NCBI RefSeq assembly: GCF_036226405.1
Contig: NZ_CP108464.1
Coordinates: 3,100,001 to 3,164,000, forward strand
DNA length: 64,000 nucleotides
Origin: Streptomyces sp. NBC_01260
Lineage (GTDB): Bacteria; Actinomycetota; Actinomycetes; Streptomycetales; Streptomycetaceae
Reading direction: 5' to 3'
A model generated the notes under the pieces. It had not been told where the DNA came from. It did no database searches and saw only the letters and a list, made by a program, of their open reading frames with translations. The position numbers and the translations under genes are program-made. Within the stretch, counting starts at the first letter, position 1. The number at the start of each line of letters is the position of its first letter. Of this stretch, positions 8,263 through 24,827 are shown one piece after another.

Positions 8263-9147
8263 TCAGGCGCCGAGGATCTCGCGCGCCAGCTTGGCGGTCT
8301 CGGTCGGCGTCTTGCCGACCTTGACGCCGGCGGCCTCAAGGGCCTCCTTCTTCGCCTGCGCGGTGCCGGAGGAACCGGAGACGATGGCGCCGGCGTGGCC
8401 CATGGTCTTGCCCTCGGGGGCGGTGAAGCCCGCGACGTAACCGACGACCGGCTTGGTGACGCTCGATGCGATGAAGTCCGCCGCACGCTCCTCGGCGTCG
8501 CCGCCGATCTCGCCGATCATGACGATGAGGTCGGTCTCGGGGTCGGCCTCGAACGCCGCGAGGGCGTCGATGTGCGTCGTGCCGATGACCGGGTCGCCAC
8601 CGATGCCGACGGCCGACGAGAAGCCGATGTCACGGAGCTCGTACATCATCTGGTAGGTCAGCGTGCCCGACTTCGACACGAGACCGATACGGCCGGGCTT
8701 GGTGATGTCGCCCGGGATGATGCCGGCGTTGGACTGACCGGGGGTGATCAGGCCGGGGCAGTTCGGGCCGATGATCCGGGTCTTGTTGCCCTTCGCGCCG
8801 GCGTACGCCCAGAAGGCGGCCGAGTCGTGAACGGCGATGCCCTCGGTGATCACGACGGCGAGGGGGATCTCGGCGTCGATCGCCTCGACGACGGCGGCCT
8901 TCGAGAAGGCCGGCGGCACGAAGAGGACGGACACGTTCGCGCCGGTCTTCTCCATCGCTTCCTTGACGGAACCGAAGACCGGGATCTCGCTGCCGTCGAA
9001 GTCGACGGAGGTGCCGGCCTTGCGCGGGTTCACGCCGCCGACGATGTTGGTGCCGTCGGCGAGCATGAGCTTGGTGTGCTTCATGCCCGTCGCGCCGGTC
9101 ATCCCCTGGACGATGACCTTGCTGTCCTTGGTGAGGAAGATAGCCAT
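8263..9147 (-). CDS. sucD: Succinyl-CoA ligase alpha subunit SucD
   Basis: 294 aa, normal length. With SucC it makes succinate and nucleoside triphosphate from succinyl-CoA in the TCA cycle. It shows the CoA-binding Rossmann start ([15 protein letters not shown]), the NCPG motif ([10 protein letters not shown]) and the phosphohistidine region [15 protein letters not shown]. It starts 21 nt after sucC stops; a two-gene operon. Confidence 0.98.
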
Positions 9148-9168
9148 GGTGGTCTGAGTCCCTCTTCC

Positions 9169-10350
9169 TTACTTCGCAGCCGCGGCGAGCTCGGCGGCCT
9201 TGTCGGCCGCGCCGTCCATGGTGTCCACGCGCTGAACGAGCGGGTGGTTGGCGTCGGAGAGGATCTTGCGACCCAGCTCCGCGTTGTTGCCGTCGAGGCG
9301 CACGACGAGCGGCTTGGTGACCGCTTCGCCCTTGGTCTTGAGCAGCTCAAGCGCCTGGACGATGCCGTTGGCGACCTCGTCGCAGGCGGTGATGCCGCCG
9401 AAGACGTTGACGAAGACGGACTTGACGTCCGGGTCGCCGAGGATGATCTCAAGGCCGTTCGCCATGACCTCTGCGGAGGCGCCGCCACCGATGTCGAGGA
9501 AGTTGGCGGGCTTCACGTTGCCGTGGTTCTCACCGGCGTACGCGACGACGTCCAGGGTCGACATGACCAGACCGGCACCGTTACCGATGATGCCGACCTC
9601 GCCGTCGAGCTTGACGTAGTTGAGGTTCTTGGCCTTGGCGGCAGCCTCGAGCGGGTTGGCCGCGGCCTTGTCCTCGAGCGCCTCGTGGCCGGGCTGGCGG
9701 AAGTCGGCGTTCTCGTCGAGAGACACCTTTCCGTCCAGGGCCAGGATTCGCCCGTCCTTGGTCTTCACCAGCGGGTTGACCTCGACGAGGAGGGCGTCCT
9801 CGGCGACGAAGGTGTCCCACAGGGTCACCATGGCCTCGGCGACACCCTCGGCCACGTCGGCCGGGAACTTCGCCTGGGCCACGATCTCGCGGGCCTTGAC
9901 GATGTCCACGCCGTCCACGGCGTTGACCGGGACCTTCGCGAGGGCCTCGGGGGTCTTCTCCGCGACCTCCTCGATGTCCATGCCACCCTGCACCGAGGCC
10001 ATGGCCAGGAAGGTGCGGTTGGTGCGGTCCAGGAGGTACGAGACGTAGTACTCCGCCTCGATCTCCGGGGACAGCTCGGCGATCATCACCTTGTGGACCG
10101 TGTGGCCCTTGATGTCCATGCCGAGAATGTCGGTCGCCCGGGCGACCGCCTCGTCGGGGGTGGCGGCCAGCTTGACGCCACCGGCCTTGCCGCGGCCGCC
10201 GACCTTCACCTGCGCCTTGACGACGGACTTGCCGCCCAGCCGCTCGGTCGCCTCGCGGGCTGCCTCAGGCGTGTCGATGACTTCACCGGCCAGCACCGGT
10301 ACACCGTGCTTGGCGAAGAGGTCCCTCGCCTGGTACTCGAACAGGTCCAC
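9169..10350 (-). CDS. sucC: Succinyl-CoA ligase beta subunit SucC
   Basis: 393 aa. It carries an ATP-grasp domain ([20 protein letters not shown] at the start, [14 protein letters not shown], then VEVNPLV) and a C-terminal ligase domain with the phosphate loop ([14 protein letters not shown]). The GTG was chosen because AAGGGACGG lies upstream and family members start VDLFEYQ; an earlier in-frame start would add an unrelated Arg-rich stretch. The promoter lies in the 262-bp gap before the vWA gene. Confidence 0.97.
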
Positions 10351-10612
10351 GCGCGTCCGTCCCTTATCAAATGGTCTCGCGGTTGGTTTTCTGCGTGGGC
10401 GTGCCGCGAGGGGCAACGTGACTGCGACTGTCACCAGGAAGGCGCACACGGTGACCGAATACGCGGCATGTCCATCTCGCAGGTTATCCCCGCGCCCCGC
10501 AGGACCCTAAATCGCAGATCGCACCTGGGCGGTGATTACGGTCACAGGCCGCCCTGGTAGCCGGGTCGCAGTGGACAAAACGGCGCGGGCACACCGGTCG
10601 GGCGACCGCCCG

Positions 10613-11857
10613 TCATCCATGGGCCTCCTTGTCCGGCAGGGGCAGCGGCCGCTTCTCGATCGCCGCCGCCATCACTTCCGGAAAGAGGTCCGGCGTACAG
10701 GCGAAGGCCGGAGCGCCCAGCGCGGCGAGTGCGCTCGCGTGGTCGCGGTCGTAGGCGGGTGCGCCCTCGTCGGAGAGGGCGAGCAGGGTCACGAACTGCA
10801 CTCCGGACGCCTTCATCGCGGCGACCCGCTTCAGCATCTCGTTGCGGATGCCGCCCTCGTACAGGTCGCTGATGAGCACGACGACGGTGTCCGCGGGGCG
10901 GGTGATCCTGGACTGGCAGTAGGCGAGCGCCCGGTTGATGTCGGTGCCGCCGCCGAGCTGGGTGCCGAAGAGCACGTCCACCGGGTCGTCGAGCTGGTCG
11001 GTGAGGTCGACGACGGCCGTGTCGAAGACGACGAGCCTGGTCCGCAGGGCGCGCATGGAGGCGAGCACGGCGCCGAAGACCGAGGCGTACACCACGGAGG
11101 CCGCCATCGAGCCGGACTGGTCGATGCAGAGGATGACGTCCTTCTTCACGGACTGTGCCGCGCGGCCGTAGCCGATGAGCCGCTCGGGCACGATCGTGCC
11201 GGCCCCGTCCTCCCCGGGGAGGGTCAGGTAGTTCTTGAGGTTGGCCCGGATGGTCCGGTTCCAGTCGATGTCGTGGTGACGCGGCCGGCTGACCTTCGCC
11301 GAGCGGTCCAGCGCACCCGTGAGCGCCGCCCGGGTGCGGGTGGTGAGCCGGCTCTCCAGCTTCTCGACGACCTTGCGCACGACGGCTCTCGCGGTCTCCT
11401 TCGTCGTCTCGGGCATCACCTTGTTGAGCGAGAGCAGGGTGCCGACGAGATGGACGTCCGCCTCGACGGCCTCCAGCATCTCCGGTTCGAGCAGGAGCGC
11501 GGAGAGGCCGAGGCGGTCGATGGCGTCGCGCTGCATGACCTGGACGACGGAGCTGGGGAAGTACGTACGGATGTCCCCGAGCCAGCGGGCCACGGAGGGC
11601 GCGGAGGCGCCCAGTCCTGCCGAGCGGCCGCTGCCGCCCCGTCCGCCGGGCTGTCTCCCGCCCTCGTACAGCGCGGTCAGTGCGCCGTCCATCGCGGCGT
11701 CGCGTCCGGTGAGGGTGCAGCCCGTGCTCTGCGAGCTGTCCGCGCCGAGCACCATGCGCCAGCGCCGCAGCCGTTCACCGTCGTCCGCGCCCTGCACGCG
11801 AGCGGTCTCGTCCGTCCCGGCCGGCTTGTCCGCCCCGGCCGTCCTGGTCGTCGTCAT
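10613..11857 (-). CDS. vWA domain protein of a MoxR/YehL-type module
   Basis: 414 aa. The C-terminal vWA domain has a complete MIDAS: DQSGS, then the Thr in GGGTDINRA and the Asp in LISDLYEGG. The N-terminal part is helical. The start overlaps the DUF5682 stop as ATGA, so translation is coupled. Third gene of MoxR ATPase-DUF5682-vWA. MoxR ATPases commonly act with vWA partners in metal-ion or complex maturation; E. coli yehL-yehP is an analogous uncharacterised pair. The substrate is unknown. No metal-binding residue is missing. Confidence 0.9.
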   Translation of the reverse strand: MTTTRTAGADKPAGTDETARVQGADDGERLRRWRMVLGADSSQSTGCTLTGRDAAMDGALTALYEGGRQPGGRGGSGRSAGLGASAPSVARWLGDIRTYFPSSVVQVMQRDAIDRLGLSALLLEPEMLEAVEADVHLVGTLLSLNKVMPETTKETARAVVRKVVEKLESRLTTRTRAALTGALDRSAKVSRPRHHDIDWNRTIRANLKNYLTLPGEDGAGTIVPERLIGYGRAAQSVKKDVILCIDQSGSMAASVVYASVFGAVLASMRALRTRLVVFDTAVVDLTDQLDDPVDVLFGTQLGGGTDINRALAYCQSRITRPADTVVVLISDLYEGGIRNEMLKRVAAMKASGVQFVTLLALSDEGAPAYDRDHASALAALGAPAFACTPDLFPEVMAAAIEKRPLPLPDKEAHG

Positions 11858-14241
11858 CCCGTTGCCCCCAGCGGTTGCTCGGTGTGGTCGTGTCCCTCCG
11901 CGGCCCCGTCCCCATCCGCGTCCAGGCCCAGCAGCAGGCGCAGCACCGGCAGCACCGCGTCCGCCCGCGGTCCGTCGAGTACGGGGCCGAATCCGGGAGC
12001 CGTCGCCCCGCCGCCAGGGACCGTGCCCGCCCCCGCGGCCGCTCCCCCGGCAGCGGGGCCGCGCCGGACGAGCTCGCCCAGCGTGCGCCGGACACCTGAT
12101 TCGTACGCCGAGAAGGTGCGGCGCAGCAGCGGCAGCACGTCGGTGAAGGTGTCCGGGGAGACCCCGCACAGCCAGGAGTCGACCAGGGCGAGCAGCCGCT
12201 CGTCATGGACCAGGAGCATGCCGCCACCGGCCGCCCCGCCGACGAAGCCCTCGATCCACGCGGCGGCGTCGGCGGGCGGTGTGCCGGGCGAGAGGGCCAG
12301 GCCCATCAGCCGGGCCGCGTCGTCCTGTCCGAGGTGCCCGTCGTCGAGCAGCAACCGGGCGGCCCGGCCCCGGATCACGCCTGCGACCGTGTCGCGGGCG
12401 GCGAGCTTGCGCAGCACCGCCCTCCAGCGTTCGCGCAGCCCGTCCGCGTTCGCCGGTACGGCGCCGGCGAGCAGCCCGATCGCCGTGTGGACGCCGTCCA
12501 CCTGGCGGCGCAGCGCGGCGGCCCCGTCGTCGTCGAGTCCGGTGCAGGCGGGTGGCAGTCCGACGCAGATCCGCTCCGCCAGCCCGGCCGCGACCTCCCC
12601 GAGCGCCGCGGTGTCCGTGGACCGGACGTCCCCGTAGCGCAGCGTCCGGGCCAGGGACGGCAGGGCGTCGGCGAGGTGGCCGACGTCCGTGTCGAGGGCG
12701 GCACGGTCGGCGAGCACGCGCATCACGACGGGCAGCGCCTCGGGCAGTTCGGCCAGCAGGCACTGTTCGGCGAGCGCGGTGACCTCGGCGAGGGCGGTGG
12801 CCGCCACGGCGTCCGACTCGGCGCGGGCGGTCGCGGCGGAGAGCACGGTGGTGCCCCATACGCCCGCCTCCGCGACGCGTACGTACAACTCGGGCTCCCA
12901 GCGCAGCCGCCAGCTCTCCCGGAAGGTGCCGGTGCTCCCCCGGCCCTCGGTGGGTTCGCCCCAGCCGACGCCGAGGATCCGCAGCCGGTGCAGCAGCCGG
13001 CTGCGGGCCGCGTCGGTGTCCTTGCGGAGGTCGAGCTCCATGTCCCGTTCGGACGCCTCCGGTTTGAGCCGCAGGGTGCGCTGCAGGCGGGTGAGGTCGC
13101 GCTGGAGCGGCACGGCGGGGGCGGTGTCCGGTACCTCGCCGAGTGTCCCGCCGACGATCAGCCGGTCCCGGACGAGGGCGAGCGGTACGTCGGAGCCCTC
13201 GCACATCACGGCGCGGACGGCGTCGGTCGCCTCGCTCAGTCCGGCGAGCGGCCGGCCCCGCACGGCGGCGAGGGTCGCGGCGAGCCGGACGGCCTCGATG
13301 ACATGGGCGGACGACACGAACCGGTCCTCGTCGCGCAGGAGTCCGGCGACCTTGGTCATCCACCGTTCGACCGGGCGGTCCGGGGATGCGAAGAGGTGTG
13401 CGTACCAGCCGGGTGAATCGATCCCGGCCCCGTATCCGCTGTGCCGGGCGAGCCGGTGGTGGGTCCAGGGCACCCAGGTCAGCTCGGCCTTGACCTTGGG
13501 CAGTCCCTTGAGGAGGGCCCGGTCGGCGGCGAGCGTCGTCCTCGCTTCGAGCGCGGGTACGTGCCAGGCACCGCAGACCACGGCGAAGTCGTCGCCGAAC
13601 TCCTTGCGCGCCGTGCGCAACTGGATCCGCATGTACGCCTCGCGGACCGCGTCCCTGGGGTGGCCGCCGTCCCCGTACACCTCGCGCAGCGCGGTCATCG
13701 CCTCGCCGAGCGCGGCGAAGGCCGCCGACGGGTCGCCGGGGCCGCCGTCGTGGGCGCGGTGCTCGACGACGTCCTCCCACCAGCGCTCGGGGTCGTCGTA
13801 GCCCGCGGTCTCGGCCAGTACCCCGATGGGGTCGACCGGGACGGGCGGGGAGCCCGCTTCCCCGGCCTGTTCCGCCGGGCCCCGGCGCTCGTCCTCCTCC
13901 GTCATGGCCAGCGAGTGGGCGGCCGGCAGGTCGATGAAGCGGACCGGGACGCCGTGCGCGAGGGCCCAGCGGATCGCGACCCATTCGGGCGAGAACTCGG
14001 CGAGCGGCCAGAACGCCGCCCGTCCGGGATCATCCACCGCATGGGCGAGCAGTGCGACGGGCGGCCGCATCTGCTCGTCGGCGGCGAGCGGCAGCAGCGC
14101 GTCGCCCTCGGGCGGGCCCTCGATGAGCACCGCCCGCGGACGGGCGGCCTCCAGTGCGGCGCCGACGGCGCGGGCCGAGCCGGGGCCGTGGTGCCGCACC
14201 CCCAGCAGCAGCGGCCCGCCGGGGCGCGGGGCGCCGGTCAC
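11854..14241 (-). CDS. DUF5682 family protein, possible TIKI/TraB/EreA-like hydrolase
   Basis: 795 aa, soluble. The N-terminal ~235 residues show a first GxxH (GVRH, 14-17), conserved acids in IEGPPEGD (E41, E45), an REAYM segment near 200-204 and a second GxxH (GAWH, 224-227). That order resembles the TIKI/TraB/erythromycin-esterase fold; this is my inference, while DUF5682 itself has no established function. The rest is helical, Arg/Ala-rich and repeat-like. Both ends overlap neighbours by four bases (ATGA with MoxR upstream and vWA downstream), so the three are one tightly coupled operon. Confidence 0.85.
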   Translation of the reverse strand: MTGAPRPGGPLLLGVRHHGPGSARAVGAALEAARPRAVLIEGPPEGDALLPLAADEQMRPPVALLAHAVDDPGRAAFWPLAEFSPEWVAIRWALAHGVPVRFIDLPAAHSLAMTEEDERRGPAEQAGEAGSPPVPVDPIGVLAETAGYDDPERWWEDVVEHRAHDGGPGDPSAAFAALGEAMTALREVYGDGGHPRDAVREAYMRIQLRTARKEFGDDFAVVCGAWHVPALEARTTLAADRALLKGLPKVKAELTWVPWTHHRLARHSGYGAGIDSPGWYAHLFASPDRPVERWMTKVAGLLRDEDRFVSSAHVIEAVRLAATLAAVRGRPLAGLSEATDAVRAVMCEGSDVPLALVRDRLIVGGTLGEVPDTAPAVPLQRDLTRLQRTLRLKPEASERDMELDLRKDTDAARSRLLHRLRILGVGWGEPTEGRGSTGTFRESWRLRWEPELYVRVAEAGVWGTTVLSAATARAESDAVAATALAEVTALAEQCLLAELPEALPVVMRVLADRAALDTDVGHLADALPSLARTLRYGDVRSTDTAALGEVAAGLAERICVGLPPACTGLDDDGAAALRRQVDGVHTAIGLLAGAVPANADGLRERWRAVLRKLAARDTVAGVIRGRAARLLLDDGHLGQDDAARLMGLALSPGTPPADAAAWIEGFVGGAAGGGMLLVHDERLLALVDSWLCGVSPDTFTDVLPLLRRTFSAYESGVRRTLGELVRRGPAAGGAAAGAGTVPGGGATAPGFGPVLDGPRADAVLPVLRLLLGLDADGDGAAEGHDHTEQPLGATG

Positions 14242-15350
14242 AGGGAGGCCTCACGGCAGGCGCGGTAGAAGTCCTTCCAGCCGTCCCGCTCGCGCACCAC
14301 CGTCTCCAGGTACTCCTGCCAGACCACCCGGTCGGCGGCCGGGTCCCGGACGACCGCGCCGAGGATGCCGGCCGCGACGTCCCCGGCACGCAGCACCCCG
14401 TCGCCGAAGTGGGCGGCGAGGGCGAGGCCGTTGGTGACGACGGAGATGGCCTCGGCCGTGGACAGCGTCCCCGAGGGCGACTTGATCCTGGTGCGGCCGT
14501 CGGTGGTGACCCCGTCGCGCAGCTCGCGGAAGACGGTGACCACGCGGCGGATCTCCGCGAGGCCGTCGGGCGCGGGAGGCAGGTCGAGGGAGCGGCCGAC
14601 CTGGTCGACGCGCCGCGAGACGATGTCGACCTCGGCCTCGGGGGTGGCCGGCAGCGGCAGGACCACCGTGTTGAACCGGCGGCGCAGGGCACTGGACAGC
14701 TCGTTGACCCCGCGGTCGCGGTCGTTGGCCGTGGCGATGACGTTGAAGCCGCGGACGGCCTGGACCTCCTGGCCCAGTTCGGGCAGCGGCAGGGTCTTCT
14801 CGGACAGGATGGTGATCAGGGAGTCCTGCACATCGGCGGGGATGCGGGTGAGCTCCTCGATCCGCGCGGTCATGCCCTCGGACATGGCGCGCATCAGCGG
14901 GCTGGGCACCAGCGCGTCGCGGCTGGGGCCGTGCGCGAGCAGCTCCGCGTAGTTCCACCCGTAGCGGACCGCTTCCTCGGGTGTGCCCGCCGTGCCCTGG
15001 ACGAGGAGGGTCGAGTCGCCGCTGACGGCGGCCGCGAGATGCTCGGACACCCAGGTCTTGGCGGTGCCGGGCACACCGAGCAGCAGCAGCGCCCGGTCGG
15101 TGGCGAGCGTGGTGACGGCGACCTCCACGAGGCGGCGCGGGCCCACGTACTTGGGTGTGATCACGGTGCCGTCGGACAGGGTGCCGCCCAGCAGGTACGT
15201 GGCGACGGCCCAGGGCGACAGCCGCCAACGGGCGGGCCGCGGGCGGTCGTCGGCGGCCGCGAGTGCCTTCAGCTCATCGGCGAAGGCGTCCTCGGCGTGC
15301 GGGCGCAGCGCCTCGGCGCCCACGGCTGCGGTGGTTTCGGACACGGTCAT
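14238..15350 (-). CDS. MoxR-type AAA+ ATPase (YehL-like)
   Basis: 370 aa. Walker A is GVPGTAKT, the Walker B region is ARIEELTR with the catalytic Glu, sensor 1 is NVIATANDRDRG, and the arginine finger lies in SSALRRRFN. These are the hallmarks of a MoxR-group chaperone ATPase. The start MTVSETT follows a strong GGAGGGGG; a longer frame crosses the promoter. First gene of the leftward operon, with a TTGTCAGTG-type promoter about 50 nt upstream. The likely role is ATP-driven remodelling with the vWA partner; the client is unknown. Confidence 0.92.
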   Translation of the reverse strand: MTVSETTAAVGAEALRPHAEDAFADELKALAAADDRPRPARWRLSPWAVATYLLGGTLSDGTVITPKYVGPRRLVEVAVTTLATDRALLLLGVPGTAKTWVSEHLAAAVSGDSTLLVQGTAGTPEEAVRYGWNYAELLAHGPSRDALVPSPLMRAMSEGMTARIEELTRIPADVQDSLITILSEKTLPLPELGQEVQAVRGFNVIATANDRDRGVNELSSALRRRFNTVVLPLPATPEAEVDIVSRRVDQVGRSLDLPPAPDGLAEIRRVVTVFRELRDGVTTDGRTRIKSPSGTLSTAEAISVVTNGLALAAHFGDGVLRAGDVAAGILGAVVRDPAADRVVWQEYLETVVRERDGWKDFYRACREASL

Positions 15351-15388
15351 GGATCCCCCTCCAGATCGGTCGGCCCGATGTGGTTCCC

Positions 15389-15411
15389 ACCGTGCACCAT
15401 GGCACTGACAA
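15389..15411 (-). promoter_or_regulatory. PafBC-type (LexA-independent) DNA-damage promoter of the MoxR operon
   Basis: Reading leftward: TTGTCAGTG (15411-15403), 8-nt spacer, CACGGT (15394-15389). This matches the TTGTCRGTG-N8-TANNNT element of actinobacterial LexA/RecA-independent damage promoters except for the first base of the -10. Predicted start near 15382, about 32 nt before the MoxR ATG. Confidence 0.72.
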
Positions 15412-15437
15412 TCGGCTTTCCCGCAGGTCAAAGGCGG

Positions 15438-15460
15438 TTGTCAGTGGTGCGTCCTACCGT
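15438..15460 (+). promoter_or_regulatory. PafBC-type (LexA-independent) DNA-damage promoter of the SWIM gene, leaderless
   Basis: TTGTCAGTG (15438-15446), 8-nt spacer, TACCGT (15455-15460). The first base of the mRNA falls at or next to the ATG at 15468, so the transcript would be leaderless, which fits the missing Shine-Dalgarno. Confidence 0.78.
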
Positions 15461-15467
15461 CGTGTCC

Positions 15468-16910
15468 ATGCTGCTGACTGACGGGGGAGAACCCTTGCGC
15501 ACCGCCGCTCCGGCGGCGCGCTGGACGGTGGAGCAGGTCCTGGCCCTGGCTCCTGACGAAGCTTCACGCAAGGCGGGGAACAAGCTCGGTTCGGCCGGGC
15601 CGTGGTCGGACACCGGGTGGGACGGCCCGGGTGCGGTGTGGGGGCTGTGCAGGGGGAGCGGGAGCAAGCCGTACCGCACGGTGATCGATACCACCGGCCC
15701 CGCGTACAGGTGCAGTTGCCCCAGCCGGAAGTTCCCCTGCAAGCACGCGCTGGGCCTGTTGCTGCTCCGGGCGTCCGACGAGGGGGCCCTGCCCGCGGCC
15801 GATCCGCCCGACTGGGCCGGTGAGTGGCTGGCGGGCCGCCGCCGCCGCGCGGAGGCCGCGGAGGTGAAGGAGCGGCCGGAGGGGGGCGAGGGCGCCGCGG
15901 CCGGACCTGCCGATCCGGCGGCCGCCCGGCGGCGGGCCGAGCGCCGGGCCGGGCGGATCGGCGGCGGCGTGCGGGAGCTGGAACAGCGCCTGACCGACCT
16001 GGTGCGCGGCGGTCTGGCCGCGGCCGAGCAGTCGGGATACGGGCTGTGGGAGGAGACGGCGGCCCGCATGGTCGACGCCCAGGCGCCCGGTCTGGCGGGA
16101 CGGGTAAGGGAGTTGGGCGCGATCCCGGGTTCCGGACCGGGCTGGCCGGTGCGGCTGCTGGAGGAGTGTGCGCTGCTGCATCTGCTGGACACGGGCTGGC
16201 TGGGCATCGACCGGCTGCCGCCCCCACTGGCGGCCACGGTCCGTACCCGGGTCGGGCTGCCGGCCCCCGCCGAGGGTCCGCCGGTCCGTGATCACTGGCT
16301 GGTCCTCGCCCAGTACGACACCCCCGAGGGCAAGATCGTCGCCCGTCGTATCTGGCTGTACGGGAGGGAGTCGGGCCGGACCGCGCTGCTGCTGTCCTTC
16401 GGGGCCGCCGGCCGCTCCCCCGGACAGGCCCTGCCGGTGGGCGTCACGCTGGATGCCGAGCTCACGCCCCATCGGGGATCGGGACAGCTGAGGGCCGAAC
16501 TCGGGACGCGGTTCGGGACGCCGGCGCCGGCCGGGACGCCGCCGCCGGGCGTCACGGTCGCCGGGGCGGTCGCCGCGTACGGGCGGGCCCTGGGCGACGA
16601 CCCCTGGCTGGACTCCTGGCCGGTGACGCTGCGCGACGTCATACCCGTGCCGTCCGAGGACGGCTGGCAACTGGCGGACGCGGAAGGGGATTCGGCCCTG
16701 CCGATCGCCCCGGCCGCGCTCTCCCGGCCCGCGCTGTGGAAGCTCGTCGCGCTCTCCGGCGGCGGTCCGCTCACCGTCTTCGGCGAATGCGGCCACCGCG
16801 GTTTCGACCCGCTCGCGGCCTGGCCGCCCGTGCGCGAGGGCGGCGACGACGCGCCGGAGGCCGCCGCGCACACCCTGCCGGTCAACGCCGAGACCGTGCC
16901 GCTCATCTGA
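15468..16910 (+). CDS. SWIM zinc-finger protein (YehQ-like)
   Basis: 480 aa. The SWIM zinc finger is at residues 82-93 (CSC-x6-CKH; C82, C84, C91, H93), after a predicted N-terminal substrate-like strand region (KPYRTVIDTTGPAYRC). A helical Ala/Arg-rich middle and a C-terminal domain with several Trp residues follow. SWIM domains bind nucleic acid or protein. The ATG was chosen because the promoter -10 lies 7 nt upstream; upstream GTG codons would lie within the promoter. It is followed 17 nt later by the DUF5691 gene, making a two-gene operon divergent from MoxR-DUF5682-vWA. Confidence 0.87.
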   Translation: MLLTDGGEPLRTAAPAARWTVEQVLALAPDEASRKAGNKLGSAGPWSDTGWDGPGAVWGLCRGSGSKPYRTVIDTTGPAYRCSCPSRKFPCKHALGLLLLRASDEGALPAADPPDWAGEWLAGRRRRAEAAEVKERPEGGEGAAAGPADPAAARRRAERRAGRIGGGVRELEQRLTDLVRGGLAAAEQSGYGLWEETAARMVDAQAPGLAGRVRELGAIPGSGPGWPVRLLEECALLHLLDTGWLGIDRLPPPLAATVRTRVGLPAPAEGPPVRDHWLVLAQYDTPEGKIVARRIWLYGRESGRTALLLSFGAAGRSPGQALPVGVTLDAELTPHRGSGQLRAELGTRFGTPAPAGTPPPGVTVAGAVAAYGRALGDDPWLDSWPVTLRDVIPVPSEDGWQLADAEGDSALPIAPAALSRPALWKLVALSGGGPLTVFGECGHRGFDPLAAWPPVREGGDDAPEAAAHTLPVNAETVPLI

Positions 16911-16927
16911 CTCCTGGAGGAGGAGCG

Positions 16928-18646
16928 ATGCCCCGTACCGCCACACCCACCACATCCATCACCCCCGCCCCCACGGTCTCCGCAACCGACGACCCCACCG
17001 GCCCGCTCACCGCGACGCCGTGGGAGGAGCTCGTCACCTCGGCGCTGCTCGGCACGGACCGCCGCCCTCCCGCGGCGGCATCCGGCACCGGCCCGCACAG
17101 CCGGCCGGGCGGGGTAACGGGCTACGCGGGCCCGGACGGGGCGGCGGCCGCGCTGCTGAATGCCGCCGCCCTGCACACCGTGCGGCGCCGGGCGGGTCTG
17201 CTGCCCGCTCCCGCCGCGCCCCGGCCCGCTCCCGCGCCCGCCGACCCGCGGCCGCCCCTTCCGGGGGCTGCCCGGAGCCGGCTGGAGCGGCTGCTCGCGG
17301 ACCGGGCGGCACCGAGCGGTTCGGGCGGCAGACGCGGCACGGCTCCCGATCTGACGGAACTGATTCCGCAGTGGCTGGCCACCGCCAATCTGCACGGCTA
17401 CCGGGCACCGGACGCGGCGCTGCCCGCCGTGCTGGACGCGGCCCGGGCCCGGACCGATCTGCGGCCGCAGGCCCTGGCGTTCGCCGGACCGCGCGGCCTC
17501 TGGCTGGCCGGGCTGAACCCCGAGTGGAAGTTCGCGCTGCGCGGCTCGTCCGGCACCTCACTGCTGCCGGACGTGACCGACCCGGAAGCCGTCCACCGGC
17601 TCTGGGAGGAAGGCCTGTTCGCCGAACGGGTCGCGCTGCTCTCGGCGGTACGGGCGCACGAGGCGGGCGCCGCTCTCGCCCTGCTCGCCACCACCTGGGC
17701 CACCGAGCGGGCCGAGGACCGGCTGATGTTCATCGACTCCCTGCGTACCGGGCTCTCCGGCGCCGATGAGGCCTTCCTGGAGCAGGCCCTCGCCGACCGC
17801 AGCCGCAATGTCCGCGCGACGGCCGCCGAACTGCTTTCCGCACTTCCCGAATCGGCGCTCGCCCGCCGGATGGCGGACCGGGCCCTGTCCTGCGTGAGCC
17901 CCGGCCTCACCGGCAGCGGGCCGTCCGTGGCCGTGGAGGCCCCGCACGAATGCGATGCGGCGATGCAGCGCGACGGTGTGGTGGCGCTCCCGCCGTCCGG
18001 GCGGGGCGAGCGGTCCTGGTGGCTCGGCCAGCTGGTGGAGTCGTCCCCGCTCGCGATCTGGCCGACGCGGTTCGGCGGCCGCGAGGCGCGGGAGATCGTC
18101 GCGCTCCCCGTGGCCGACGGCTGGAGCGAGGAACTCCACGCGGCCTGGTGCCGGGCCGCCGTCCGGCAGCGGGACCCGAAATGGGCGCGGGCGCTGCTCG
18201 GCGCCCCCGCGACACCCCCGTCGAACGGCCCCGGTACGGCATCGCTCGCCGAGCGGTCGAAGCTCCTGATCGTGCTGCCCTCAGCCGAACGGGCCGGCTG
18301 GGTGGCCGGGTTCATCGCCGCGCACGGCCTGTCGGAGGCGTTCCAGCTGCTGGGGGTCTGCCCGACCCCCTGGGCGGAGCCGCTCGGCCGCTCCGTCGTC
18401 GACGCCCTCGACATCGCCCGGGACGCCGGCAGCTATCCGTGGAGCTTCAGCGGGGTGATGGGCCTCGCCGAACGCTGCCTGAATCCGGCCGAGGCCGACC
18501 GCCTGGAGGTCCTCACCACGACCCCCGACGAGCCGGCGGACGCCTCCCCCGGCGCGAACGGCTACTGGTCGGAGGCGTTCCAGCGCCTGGTCTCCACCCT
18601 GCGGCTGCGCGCGGCGATGGACGCGGAGCTGGCACCGGACCGGTGA
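16928..18646 (+). CDS. DUF5691 family protein
   Basis: 572 aa, soluble, no signal peptide. A conserved start of domain (WEELVTSALLGTDRR) leads into an Ala/Arg/Leu-rich helical body that looks like HEAT-type repeats (for example EAFLEQALADRSRNVRATAAELLSALP). The ATG follows GGAGGAGGAG. It is co-transcribed with the SWIM gene. DUF5691 has no known activity; its consistent company with MoxR, vWA, DUF5682 and SWIM genes suggests a scaffold or adaptor in that module (inference). Confidence 0.85.
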   Translation: MPRTATPTTSITPAPTVSATDDPTGPLTATPWEELVTSALLGTDRRPPAAASGTGPHSRPGGVTGYAGPDGAAAALLNAAALHTVRRRAGLLPAPAAPRPAPAPADPRPPLPGAARSRLERLLADRAAPSGSGGRRGTAPDLTELIPQWLATANLHGYRAPDAALPAVLDAARARTDLRPQALAFAGPRGLWLAGLNPEWKFALRGSSGTSLLPDVTDPEAVHRLWEEGLFAERVALLSAVRAHEAGAALALLATTWATERAEDRLMFIDSLRTGLSGADEAFLEQALADRSRNVRATAAELLSALPESALARRMADRALSCVSPGLTGSGPSVAVEAPHECDAAMQRDGVVALPPSGRGERSWWLGQLVESSPLAIWPTRFGGREAREIVALPVADGWSEELHAAWCRAAVRQRDPKWARALLGAPATPPSNGPGTASLAERSKLLIVLPSAERAGWVAGFIAAHGLSEAFQLLGVCPTPWAEPLGRSVVDALDIARDAGSYPWSFSGVMGLAERCLNPAEADRLEVLTTTPDEPADASPGANGYWSEAFQRLVSTLRLRAAMDAELAPDR

Positions 18647-18744: not shown

Positions 18745-19158
18745 TCAGGCCTCCGCCGGCTGGCGGACGTTCGCGTTGACCCAGGCGACGATCTCGACCG
18801 TCGTCGCGCCCGGGGTGAAGATCTCCGCGACTCCCTGCTCCTTGAGCGGTGCGATGTCCGCCTCCGGAATGATGCCGCCGCCGAAGACCTTGATGTCCTC
18901 CGCGTCGCGCTCCTTCAGCAGGGCGATCACCTTCGCGAAGAGCGTGTTGTGCGCACCGGAGAGGATCGAGAGGCCGATCGCGTCGGCGTCCTCCTGGATC
19001 GCGGTGTCCACGATCTGCTCGGGCGTCTGGTGAAGCCCGGTGTAGATGACTTCCATACCGGCGTCGCGCAGGGCCCGCGCGATCACCTTGGCCCCGCGGT
19101 CATGGCCGTCGAGGCCCGGCTTGGCCACCACCACTCGGATCGGACCGGTCACACCCAT
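18745..19158 (-). CDS. icmB: Isobutyryl-CoA mutase small subunit IcmB (cobalamin-binding)
   Basis: 137 aa. Stand-alone B12-binding subunit that works with the large subunit IcmA (not in the window) to interconvert isobutyryl-CoA and n-butyryl-CoA, supplying polyketide and fatty-acid precursors. The base-off cobalamin motif DxHxxG is D17, H19, G22 (DGHDRG), followed by SILSGAH and FGGGIIP as in the family. The ATG (MGVTGPIRV) has GGAGG 6 nt upstream; a GTG four codons earlier overlaps that site. Length and sequence match the stand-alone S. coelicolor protein. A methylmalonyl-CoA mutase-type domain is the alternative name. Confidence 0.88.
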
Positions 19159-19563
19159 CACTGCCTCCACATGCGTCTCCCGTCCCTGAAGAGCCGGGGA
19201 TGTGAACGAACGTTATCCACAGCATCCCGCAAGCCGCTGTTTCGCGGTGGGCGGGGAGGGGGAAATCACACGTGGGACATGTTCACCGGGCGCCGTTTCC
19301 CGCAGCACGCGGCACACCTGCCGTGCGGGACCGACCGCCGGGGGAGCCGCACGAGGTCGTCGTACCACCGCGCCGTCAGCCGCACGGCACGGTGGTACGG
19401 CTCATCGACCGCCCACCGGACGGTCACCGAAGGTGATCCGGAAGGCACGGCGGGCGGCGGGTCCCGGACGGTGAGCTGCCGCCCGGACCTCCGACACGGC
19501 GCCCCATGAGGGCATACGGGGCAGGAGCCGCCTCTCCCCGGGTGCCGGAGCAGGAGGTCGACC
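19159..19563. other. Divergent gap with a possible minus-strand small ORF
   Basis: 405 bp between icmB and the lipase-like gene. A 99-codon open frame on the minus strand (19565 down to 19266) has strongly GC-biased third positions over its whole length and ends with a Cys pair (RCAACCGK) and VNMSHV, but lacks a convincing Shine-Dalgarno and overlaps the start of the facing gene. It is unclear whether it is a gene. No promoter could be fixed. Confidence 0.3.
19361..19399. repeat. 10-bp inverted repeat, possible operator or hairpin
   Basis: CGTACCACCG at 19361-19370 and CGGTGGTACG at 19390-19399, 19 nt apart, inside the icmB/lipase divergent gap. The arms' start-to-start distance of 29 nt is close to three helical turns. 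Function unknown. Confidence 0.45.
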
Positions 19564-22356: not shown

Positions 22357-24795
22357 CTACAGCTTCTGGACCGGCGCGTACCGCAGCAGCAGCTTCTTCG
22401 GCCGCTCGTCACCGAAGTCGACCGTGGCCTTCGCCTGGTCGCCGATGCCCTCGACCGCCGTCACCGTGCCCAGACCGAACTGGTCGTGGGTGACCCGGTC
22501 GCCGACCACCAGCGTGATCGTCGGCTTGTCCGAGGTCCGCCGGGTCGCGAAGCCCGAGGGCCCGGAGCGCGAGCGGGACGCGGACAGCGACGAGGTGATG
22601 CCCGACGTCGGTCCCGCCGGAGCCGCCATCGGGCCCTTCCGCTTCCACTCCAGGTGCTGGTCCGGGATCTCCTCCAGGAACCGTGACGGCGGGTTGTACG
22701 AGGGCTGGCCCCACGCGCTGCGCATCGCCGCCCGGGTCAGGTAGAGCCGCTCGCGGGCGCGGGTGATACCGACATACGCGAGCCGGCGCTCCTCCTCCAG
22801 CTCCTTGACCTGGCCCAGCGCCCGCATGTGCGGGAAGACGCCGTCCTCCATGCCGGTCAGGAAGACCACCGGGAATTCGAGGCCCTTCGCCGTGTGCAGG
22901 GTCATCAGCGTGACGACTCCGGAGCCGTCGGTGTCCTCGTCGGGGATCTGGTCGGAGTCGGCGACGAGCGCGACCCGCTCCAGGAACTCGGAGAGGGTGC
23001 CCGCACCCTCCTCCTCGCCGCGCTCCTGCTCGAATTCGAGCGCGACGGCGGCAAGCTCCTGGAGGTTCTCGATCCGGGTCTCGTCCTGCGGGTCGGTGGA
23101 GGCCTGGAGCTCGGCGAGGTAGCCGGTCCGTTCCATGACGGCCTCCAGCACCACCGCGGGGCCCGCGCCCGACTCGACGATCGTGCGCAACTCCTCCATC
23201 AGCGTGTTGAACCGCTTGACGGCGTTGGCGGAACGCGCGGCCATGCCGTACGCCTCGTCGACGCGGCGCAGCGCCTGCGGGAAGGTGATCTTCTCGCGTA
23301 GTGACAGGGCGTCGATCATCGCCTCGGCCCGGTCGCCGATGCCGCGCTTGGGCACGTTCAGGATGCGGCGCAGCGGGACCGTGTCCTCGGGGTTGGCGAG
23401 GACCCGGAGGTAGGCCAGGACGTCCCGGACCTCCTTGCGCTCGTAGAAGCGCACACCGCCGACGACCTTGTAGGGCAGGCCGACCCGGATGAAGATCTCC
23501 TCGAAGACACGGGACTGCGCGTTCGTCCGGTAGAAGATCGCGACATCTCCGGCCCTGGCGTCGCCCGCGTCGGTCAGCCGGTCGATCTCGTCGGCGACGA
23601 ACTGCGCCTCGTCGTGCTCGGTGTCCGCGACGTAGCCGGTGATCCGGGCTCCGGAGCCGGCGTTGGTCCAGAGGTTCTTCGGGCGGCGGCTCTCGTTGCG
23701 CTCGATGACGGCGTTGGCGGCGGACAGGATCGTCTGGGTGGAGCGGTAGTTCTGTTCCAGCAGGATCGTGGTCGCGTCCGGGTAGTCCTCCTCGAACTGG
23801 AGGATGTTGCGGATCGTGGCGCCGCGGAAGGCGTAGATCGACTGGTCCGCGTCACCGACGACGCACAGCTCGCCGGGGGCGTCGGCGGCACCGGCCGGGC
23901 CGACCAGTTCCCGTACGAGCGTGTACTGGGCGTGGTTGGTGTCCTGGTACTCGTCGACCAGGACGTGCCGGAAGCGGCGGCGGTAGTGCTCGGCGACGTC
24001 GGGGAAGGCCTGGAGCAGGTGCACCGTCGTCATGATGATGTCGTCGAAGTCCAGCGCGTTGGCCTCGCGCAGCCGGGCCTGGTACATCGCGTAGGCCTGG
24101 GCGAGCGTCTTCTCGAAACCGTCCGCCGCCTGGCCGGCGAAGGTCTCCTCGTCGATCAGCTCGTTCTTCAGGTTCGACACCTTCGCCGTGAACGACTTCG
24201 GCGGGAAGCGCTTCGGGTCGAGGTCGAGATCGCGGCAGACCAGGGCCATCAGCCGCTTGGAGTCCGCGGCGTCGTAGATCGAGAACGAGGAGGTGAAGCC
24301 GAGCTTCTTCGACTCGCGGCGCAGGATCCGTACGCACGCGCTGTGGAAGGTCATGACCCACATGGCGTTGGCGCGGGGGCCGACGAGCTGCTCGACGCGC
24401 TCCTTCATCTCGCCGGCGGCCTTGTTGGTGAAGGTGATCGCCAGGATCTGGCCGGGGTGCACCCCGCGCTCGGCCAGCAGGTGGGCGATGCGGTGGGTCA
24501 GCACCCGGGTCTTGCCCGAACCGGCCCCGGCGACGATGAGCAGCGGGGACCCCGCGTGCACCACGGCGGCACGCTGCTCGGTGTTCAGCCCGTCGAGCAG
24601 CGCGGCGGCGTCGATGACCGGGCGGTGGGCCCCGTCGCGGTAGTACGCGTCGCGGGGCGGCGGGGGCCCGTCGAACACGCCCCCGAAGAGGTCCTCCGGC
24701 ACCGCTTCGGGTGCGGAGTCCTCGGGGGGCGGCGGGGGCCCTTCCTCCGTGTGCTGGAGGCCGGCCAGGAAACTGTCGTCAAAGAGGCTGCTCAT
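22357..24795 (-). CDS. pcrA: ATP-dependent DNA helicase PcrA/UvrD
   Basis: 812 aa. Superfamily 1A 3'-5' helicase for nucleotide-excision repair and clearing of recombination intermediates. Motifs in order: GAGSGKT (Walker A), TFTNKAA, DEYQDTN (Walker B), GDADQSIYAFRGA, LEQNYRST, TLHTAKGLEFPVVF, VGITRA. The C-terminal Tudor-like tail (VGDRVTHDQFGLGTV) is typical of actinobacterial and Bacillus PcrA and binds RNA polymerase. A proline-rich N-terminal extension precedes residue 70. The ATG is preceded at 7-10 nt by the -10 of a damage-type promoter, so the mRNA is nearly leaderless. Confidence 0.97.
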   Translation of the reverse strand: MSSLFDDSFLAGLQHTEEGPPPPPEDSAPEAVPEDLFGGVFDGPPPPRDAYYRDGAHRPVIDAAALLDGLNTEQRAAVVHAGSPLLIVAGAGSGKTRVLTHRIAHLLAERGVHPGQILAITFTNKAAGEMKERVEQLVGPRANAMWVMTFHSACVRILRRESKKLGFTSSFSIYDAADSKRLMALVCRDLDLDPKRFPPKSFTAKVSNLKNELIDEETFAGQAADGFEKTLAQAYAMYQARLREANALDFDDIIMTTVHLLQAFPDVAEHYRRRFRHVLVDEYQDTNHAQYTLVRELVGPAGAADAPGELCVVGDADQSIYAFRGATIRNILQFEEDYPDATTILLEQNYRSTQTILSAANAVIERNESRRPKNLWTNAGSGARITGYVADTEHDEAQFVADEIDRLTDAGDARAGDVAIFYRTNAQSRVFEEIFIRVGLPYKVVGGVRFYERKEVRDVLAYLRVLANPEDTVPLRRILNVPKRGIGDRAEAMIDALSLREKITFPQALRRVDEAYGMAARSANAVKRFNTLMEELRTIVESGAGPAVVLEAVMERTGYLAELQASTDPQDETRIENLQELAAVALEFEQERGEEEGAGTLSEFLERVALVADSDQIPDEDTDGSGVVTLMTLHTAKGLEFPVVFLTGMEDGVFPHMRALGQVKELEEERRLAYVGITRARERLYLTRAAMRSAWGQPSYNPPSRFLEEIPDQHLEWKRKGPMAAPAGPTSGITSSLSASRSRSGPSGFATRRTSDKPTITLVVGDRVTHDQFGLGTVTAVEGIGDQAKATVDFGDERPKKLLLRYAPVQKL

Positions 24796-24804
24796 CGCTG
24801 TCCG

Positions 24805-24827
24805 AGTCTAGGCGGCCGCACTGACAC
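24805..24827 (-). promoter_or_regulatory. DNA-damage (PafBC-type) promoter of pcrA
   Basis: Reading leftward: GTGTCAGTG (24827-24819), 8-nt spacer, TAGACT (24810-24805), with the start codon 10 nt further on. Eight of nine bases of the TTGTCRGTG box match. Supports DNA-damage induction of pcrA. Confidence 0.72.

Follow-up and report, generated by a model that had tools for sequence, protein, structure and literature searches.

MoxR-type AAA+ ATPases are thought to act as chaperones that mature specific complexes, and RavA and YehL represent separate subfamilies of them (PMC3893208). RavA of Escherichia coli has ViaA as its vWA partner, and in the yehLMPQ cluster of the same organism genes for MoxR, DUF5682, vWA and SWIM homologues are adjacent in this order, preceded by genes for a DUF4132 (yehI) and a PF05406 (yehF) protein. 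Our literature search found no paper assigning a role to yehLMPQ-type modules and none on DUF5682 or DUF5691. In Streptomyces coelicolor, SCO4804 has been treated as a hypothetical regulator of the topoisomerase gene topA that acts with SCO4805 (PMC8120823). Here we describe a five-gene module encoding MoxR, DUF5682, vWA, SWIM zinc-finger and DUF5691 proteins in Streptomyces sp. NBC_01260, located in a stretch of 64,000 nucleotides (contig NZ_CP108464.1, positions 3,100,001 to 3,164,000), referred to as the window. We consider it on balance probable that the module represents, in Streptomyces, a widespread protein-remodelling machine of the YehL-type MoxR/vWA kind, placed here within the DNA-damage regulon. 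The five-family machine itself appears to be already widespread; what seems to be new is its link to damage-type promoters, and the literature search found no paper naming the module as a member of the PafBC/RecA-NDp regulon or joining it to the damage response.

Promoter motifs at the operon heads

Pfam matches and re-reading of the start codons placed the genes for MoxR, DUF5682 and vWA on the leftward and those for SWIM and DUF5691 on the rightward of two divergent operons (Table 1). This bears out the arrangement given by a first-pass annotation of the locus, including the four-base overlaps at both junctions of the leftward trio: GTGA joins the MoxR stop (14238) to the DUF5682 start, and ATGA the DUF5682 stop to the vWA start. 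The MoxR and SWIM starts are separated by a divergent gap of 117 bases. It contains two sites of the RecA-NDp/PafBC type, the consensus of which we take to be TTGTCRGTG-N8-TAnnnT, with a perfect copy at recA of the same genome. Both sites point outward, one per operon, and the SWIM ATG lies 7 bases past its site. The module thereby shares its promoter motif type with the PafBC/RecA-NDp regulon of actinobacteria, as does recA here. The presence of such promoters at both heads strengthens the link to mitomycin and UV stress that had been proposed for the locus.

Three matches with up to one mismatch were found in the window, compared to 0.07 expected, and the whole genome contained 21 perfect sites compared to 0 for the reversed control motif. 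Among the other 20 perfect sites, eight precede repair- or replication-type genes: recA, thyX, a dnaN paralogue, ruvC and genes for an O6-methylguanine methyltransferase, a UvrB_inter helicase, a RecD2-type and a uracil-DNA-glycosylase-type protein. The perfect motifs at thyX and the dnaN-like sliding-clamp gene (L058, L063) may point to a damage-induced replication set. The genome also carries a pafA-type gene, followed about 2.4 kb downstream by two tandem WYL genes that, judged from their position, would encode PafB and PafC; both the motif at the two operon heads and pafBC-like genes are thus present. Perfect sites with an open frame of unknown family occur near both chromosome ends (L054, about 10768; L074, about 9113565). 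The third site in the window (24805-24827, minus strand, one mismatch) stands just ahead of pcrA/uvrD, and pcrA was shortly preceded by a site with at most one mismatch in 6 of 6 loci (L205-L210).

The sites are retained along with the module. A close MoxR was present in 37 of 41 Streptomyces genomes, and the window form is near-core and syntenic. Within the best 30 matches from these 41 genomes, own locus included, the MoxR-side site was kept in 30 of 30 loci, and a SWIM-side site occurred at most 450 bases from MoxR in 24, with 23 of these perfect; the remaining six loci contain a spacer of 0.6-0.7 kb and keep both sites. The background of this set was 0 sites in 75,754 bases at up to two mismatches. 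In a larger set of 80 named Streptomycetaceae loci, kept from at least 588 confirmed relatives and scanned with at most one mismatch allowed, a site was located upstream of SWIM in 74/76 and upstream of MoxR in 72/78 cases. The control genes DUF5691 (1/68), DUF5682 (0/78), vWA (0/73), icmB (0/66) and sucC (0/67) together gave 1/352. Within 450 bases of the MoxR start lay 145 of the 154 sites in these 1.57 Mb, and each of the eight loci missing one site retains the other.

A similar pattern was observed for paralogous modules, which in Streptomyces have three further architectures, with up to four versions within one genome. Class B has the order DUF4132-MoxR-DUF5682-vWA-SWIM, as in E. coli; class C consists of a giant gene without Pfam match, MoxR and a DUF5682::vWA fusion; class D reads vWA-MoxR-DUF5682. 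We examined 29 paralogues, 20 plus 3 taken from 28 weaker MoxR matches (5 of the 28 remained outside the count) and 6 from other surveyed genomes. A site was found at the operon head of 26 of the 29, perfect in 23 and with one mismatch in 3. The 26 stretches contained no further perfect site in 445,503 bases; extras were a near-site (L038:7116) and two sites beyond the stretch counted (L037:12448, 12683). In a subset of 20 loci 16 sites were perfect and 2 near-perfect; if sites occurred as often as in the densest genome, at least 16 perfect in 20 would arise by chance with a probability of about 7e-16, kinship being ignored. Also the E. coli-like form in Streptomyces (L040, L194, L196) has a perfect site at its head. 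The giant gene of class C (L035:1573-7461, 1,962 amino acids, no Pfam match; also L034, L039) has a damage-type site ahead of it in most modules. Taken together, motif and conservation make it very likely that the module belongs to the damage regulon, and this regulatory half of our proposal is strong.

Some details of the locus complete this description. GGAGG precedes the MoxR ATG, and GGAGGAGGAG lies upstream of the DUF5691 ATG, 17 bases separating SWIM and DUF5691. The SWIM frame has an alternative in-frame TTG at 15495. A sigma-70 scan returned no promoter, and a terminator scan one terminator-like site, which is at chance level. The DUF5682 protein is 98% identical to a S. laculatispora protein (homologue search with a 692-residue query lacking the C-terminus). 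The SWIM homologues among the 120 matches listed are close relatives, and every named one is from Streptomyces.

Table 1. Position of the module genes, the promoter-type sites and neighbouring genes within the window.
Feature	Position	Strand	Evidence
vWA (CoxE-type) protein, 414 amino acids	10613..11857	-	Pfam VWA_CoxE 207 bits; ATG 11857; MIDAS D246-x-S-x-S kept
DUF5682 protein, 795 amino acids	11854..14241	-	Pfam 989 bits; GTG 14241
YehL-type MoxR AAA+ ATPase, 370 amino acids	14238..15350	-	AAA_5 131 bits; YehL 224 bits; ATG 15350
RecA-NDp-type site facing MoxR, TTGTCAGTG-N8-CACGGT, one mismatch	15389..15411	-	motif scan
RecA-NDp-type site facing SWIM, TTGTCAGTG-N8-TACCGT, perfect	15438..15460	+	motif scan
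SWIM zinc-finger protein, 480 amino acids (C82-x-C-x6-C-x-H93)	15468..16910	+	Pfam SWIM 25 bits, cut-off 19.6; ATG 15468
DUF5691 protein, 572 amino acids	16928..18646	+	Pfam 581-582 bits; ATG 16928
Two succinyl-CoA-ligase-type genes (neighbours)	8263-10449
B12-binding protein gene (neighbour), presumably icmB-like	18745-19170	-
pcrA/uvrD (neighbour)	22357-24795		start 24795

Gene order, protein families and related systems

Among 198 actinobacterial genomes DUF5682 was detected in 17 and DUF5691 over the cut-off in 16, all of which were among the 17 (hypergeometric 1.2e-22, shared ancestry ignored). A failure of the families to co-occur beyond chance had been named beforehand as a reason to give up the module, and they passed this test. 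In 5 of the 16 DUF5691 genomes (family f26) the match is confined to the first third of the model. The lone DUF5682 genome without DUF5691 (G124) carries the E. coli-like form with DUF4132, and below-cut-off DUF5691 matches occurred in three further genomes (G049, G153, G187), all without DUF5682. Eight other actinobacterial loci (L042-L049) and 20/20 further actinomycete loci (L254-L273) have the order SWIM-DUF5691-MoxR-DUF5682-vWA on a single strand. The latter are 20 of 36 DUF5691-matching genomes outside the genus and were selected for having DUF5691; frames in the relatives' loci were taken stop-to-stop, which makes the gene edges approximate. The annotation shows this order also on two Rhizobium plasmids and, with one small extra gene, in Deinococcus taeanensis. 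In Methylosinus and Hymenobacter radiodurans the vWA gene is unannotated and vWA similarity was located downstream, in three pieces in Methylosinus. All five families were also detected by profile in Methylobacterium, Nocardia and Nonomuraea, and Methylobacterium and Hymenobacter share the single-operon form. On these comparisons, the five genes form a real unit. The single-operon form, the promoter pair in the divergent gap and the adjacent B12-binding gene are additions to the first-pass annotation. In several soil bacteria, among them Deinococcus, a plasmid or secondary replicon carries the five-gene operon (L214, L217, L226, L223, L215), and the annotation of Hymenobacter radiodurans (L215) splits its DUF5682 gene into three pieces.

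Two fusions are informative on the assembly of the module. In Hymenobacter sp. HDW8 SWIM and DUF5691 are fused into one gene of 3,030 bases, and the paralogous Streptomyces module L034 encodes DUF5682::vWA as a single protein of 1,243 amino acids (PF18934 683 bits, PF05762 219 bits). The fusions point to MoxR/DUF5682/vWA and SWIM/DUF5691 as two physical sub-assemblies, and we have good confidence that MoxR, vWA and DUF5682 would form a physical complex.

The proteins retain the residues typical of their families at 90% or more: G92, P94-G-T-A-K98 and E165-E166 in MoxR, D246-x-S-x-S, T305 and D331 in vWA, and C82-x-C-x6-C-x-H93 in SWIM. In DUF5682 the RHH motif at R16-H17-H18, E41, D104, the RE motif at R200-E201 and H227 are invariant in 42 sequences. 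A phmmer search of E. coli Yeh proteins against the open reading frames of the window matched YehL with 224 bits, YehM with 111 bits and YehP with 215 bits; SWIM matches opposite the MoxR strand were artefacts, as the query included sequence antisense to MoxR. NCBIfam models matched MoxR far below their cut-offs only (MadB 46.5, cut-off 475; GvpN 35.7, cut-off 266.8). As the MoxR is closest to YehL, with DUF5682, vWA and SWIM genes adjacent, the module is on sequence grounds classed as a YehL-type MoxR system. The likeness to yehLMPQ that had been noted earlier therefore holds for kinship; the gene set differs, as the E. coli control genome gave no match to DUF5691 and yehI lies upstream of the cluster. 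The ViaA model gave only 22 bits (cut-off 500) with the window vWA. For DUF5682, no sequence relative was found in the PDB up to E = 1 and no second Pfam family up to E = 10. The first-pass annotation had suggested a possible hydrolase; in a comparison directed at TraB/TIKI/EreA-like hydrolases, alignment of DUF5682 by hhalign to a single E. coli YbaP (TraB family) covered only 21 columns (around VVCGAWH / VVAVGALH) at a probability of 0.65% (E 0.088), compared to 0.12% (E 0.46) for the unrelated control UshA.

As MoxR-vWA pairs are the cores of proposed conflict systems (PMC7159879), the module might, once DNA damage has armed it, defend the cell against phage or stress or act as a self-killing effector. 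This would fit the several differently built copies per Streptomyces genome and the plasmid-borne copies, which were found in 29 of 72,556 plasmid records, including 5 classed as conjugative or mobilizable. The ternary conflict systems (VMAP, iSTAND, FtsH, beta-propeller) have the MoxR-vWA core in common with the module and differ in the third component: no VMAP, iSTAND or FtsH component was among the Pfam matches of the five proteins, and bpMoxR matched the window MoxR with 22.2 bits, below its cut-off of 27. The terms SWIM and YehL are absent from the main text of PMC7159879. PADLOC matched none of the five proteins (0/5) to a known anti-phage defence system, and of 12 matching stretches in viral contigs 0 were confirmed. 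In addition, the window form is near-core with fixed neighbours, and no variable effector was seen. Membership in the ternary conflict systems, put forward by the first-pass annotation, was not supported, and the regulated effector that it also suggested would be hypothetical. We consider a conflict module improbable; a defence or phage origin was rejected as the leading explanation. The sole phage record matched, an unverified faecal scaffold labelled 'Bacteriophage sp.' (L221, MT835988.1), carries MoxR-DUF5682-vWA and is probably a bacterial fragment.

The structurally solved relatives of the window MoxR are NorQ and Midasin. The resemblance to NorQ and the CoxE-like vWA raise the alternative of a CoxDE/NorQ-like chaperone for metal or cofactor insertion, which might serve the neighbouring B12-dependent mutase subunit. 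The B12-binding gene adjoins the module in 66 of the 80 Streptomycetaceae loci. However, in none of the 66 is it preceded by the motif, and the stretches read from Deinococcus, Rhizobium, Hymenobacter and E. coli show no such gene annotated next to the operon (the plasmid tables are incomplete). The B12-binding gene was thus rejected as part of the unit, and a chaperone of this kind is very improbable.

The promoter link beyond Streptomyces

Outside the genus a variant of the site was found in the actinomycete family f68, where in 6 of 15 loci examined the head reads TTGTCGG[CG]G-N8-TAG[CT][CG]T, followed after 7 bases by GTG. In four of the six the frame from the GTG resembles the start of the window SWIM, and L259 and L261 are more divergent. 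In three f68 genomes TTGTCRGNG-N8-TAGNNT occurs 3, 5 and 6 times, with 0 for the controls, and once at the module.

Several observations weigh against a damage-controlled module. A site at up to one mismatch is missing from 13 of the 20 actinomycete loci outside the genus, and that of L260 is doubtful, as it does not fit the start. No site was detected in 8/8 of the loci L042-L049, and of nine genomes from other genera that carry the operon, eight lack any perfect site. For seven genes from six non-actinobacterial records (Deinococcus, Hymenobacter, Methylosinus, Rhizobium, E. coli and A. vitis), the preceding 300 bases contained no LexA-type box; none of the eight patterns used (LexA types, RDRM, NDp) matched, the RDRM half being written such that it could match nothing. 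This includes E. coli yeh, and damage control outside the actinobacteria was rejected. Within Streptomyces, the -10 element on the MoxR side starts with CA instead of TA in 72/72 loci, so that this site may be weaker or differently used. Two paralogous modules, L195 (cut by the contig end) and L198, are without a site at up to one mismatch, and L034 has two mismatches. Of the other perfect sites in the genome, 12 of 20 precede genes without a clear tie to repair or replication, 8 of which lack a family match. Finally, an initial search suggested that the PafBC motif of M. smegmatis is not conserved in S. venezuelae, and whether Streptomyces has a PafBC-type response is stated as open in the same source (PMC9380542), which makes PafBC a putative activator in Streptomyces. 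The patchy distribution outside Streptomyces argues that damage control of the module is lineage-specific rather than general.

SCO6735 of S. coelicolor is reported to be UV-inducible and to have a RecA-NDp promoter (PMC5087735). MoxR1 and MoxR2, which may or may not belong to the YehL subfamily, have lower levels in a M. smegmatis delta-pafBC strain (PMC5656591). In Deinococcus, DUF4132- and WGR-containing genes rise upon depletion of DdrO (PMC8533742), which provides a parallel for the DUF4132 partner of class B.

The topoisomerase link and a proposed function

In S. coelicolor sco4801-sco4805, synteny identifies SCO4803, SCO4804 and SCO4805 as MoxR, DUF5682 and vWA. SCO4804 was equated with DUF5682 by order and size, with 815 amino acids compared to 814 in S. 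coelicoflavus (L159); sco4804 is followed by a gap of 171 bases where L159 has an overlap, perhaps due to a difference in the assigned start site. The topA promoter is less active when sco4804 carries a Tn5 insertion and more active when this gene is overexpressed, and upon depletion of TopA sco4804 and its neighbours are induced about eightfold, the corresponding figure covering sco4803-sco4806 (PMC8120823). The main text of that study does not mention MoxR or vWA, and the study is not among the papers combining two of the terms PafBC, RecA-NDp and Streptomyces. In a separate study lowered topA was accompanied by a rise of recA, recX, dnaE2, dinP, uvrA and lexA, which the authors credit to LexA; 'sco48' is absent from its main text (PMC6637917). 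We offer the explanation that the induction of the sco480x genes is caused by damage signalling via the promoters found here. As a further point against this explanation, TopA depletion may act through supercoiling and not through damage.

The dosage effect on topA and the induction upon TopA depletion could also indicate that the module senses or answers DNA topology and tunes topA and gyrase, with damage induction being secondary, which would extend the published proposal for SCO4804. However, 6His-SCO4804 bound DNA non-specifically only, a direct interaction with TopA was excluded, and overexpression left the supercoiling of a reporter plasmid unchanged; the authors conclude that the effect is indirect (PMC8120823), and the S. 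coelicolor work describes an indirect effect on topA and gyrB. In addition, the module shares its promoter type with recA, and a MoxR-vWA motor is unlikely to be a transcription factor. We therefore regard a supercoiling-responsive regulator as rather unlikely.

Remodelling of a target at the DNA is in our view the most economical reading, because of the damage-type promoters, the zinc-finger arm and the influence on topoisomerase genes described in the literature. Damage or severe over-winding of the DNA would turn on both halves of the module from the two outward RecA-NDp-type promoters, which RNA polymerase most likely recognizes together with the activator PafBC. The MoxR ring and the MIDAS-containing vWA protein would provide motor and adaptor, with DUF5682 as a close partner, as it is fused to vWA in paralogues. 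The SWIM-DUF5691 pair would form a second subunit, probably for recruitment, by which the motor is directed to a target at or close to DNA that is damaged or under topological stress. There the motor would remodel or remove the target, allowing replication, transcription and the topoisomerase balance to recover. This biochemical half is what we infer from the composition of the module, and recruitment and remodelling at DNA are put forward tentatively.

A more specific version, in which the damage-induced MoxR/vWA motor is guided by SWIM-DUF5691 to strip stalled or cross-linked proteins such as topoisomerase complexes off the DNA, and DUF5682 acts as catalytic or clamp subunit, is unlikely though worth stating. 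If true, the module would be a bacterial counterpart of the eukaryotic AAA+ extraction machines, distributed across several phyla.

For the remodelling machine within the damage regulon as proposed here, the consequences are broader. It offers an explanation for the puzzle of a 'topA regulator' that lacks specific DNA binding and is yet induced on TopA depletion. It also argues for a working RecA-NDp-type regulon in Streptomyces, which was left open earlier (PMC9380542). Modules of the yehLMPQ type span several phyla, E. coli K-12 included, and the damage regulon would give the Streptomyces versions a concrete physiological context that can be tested.

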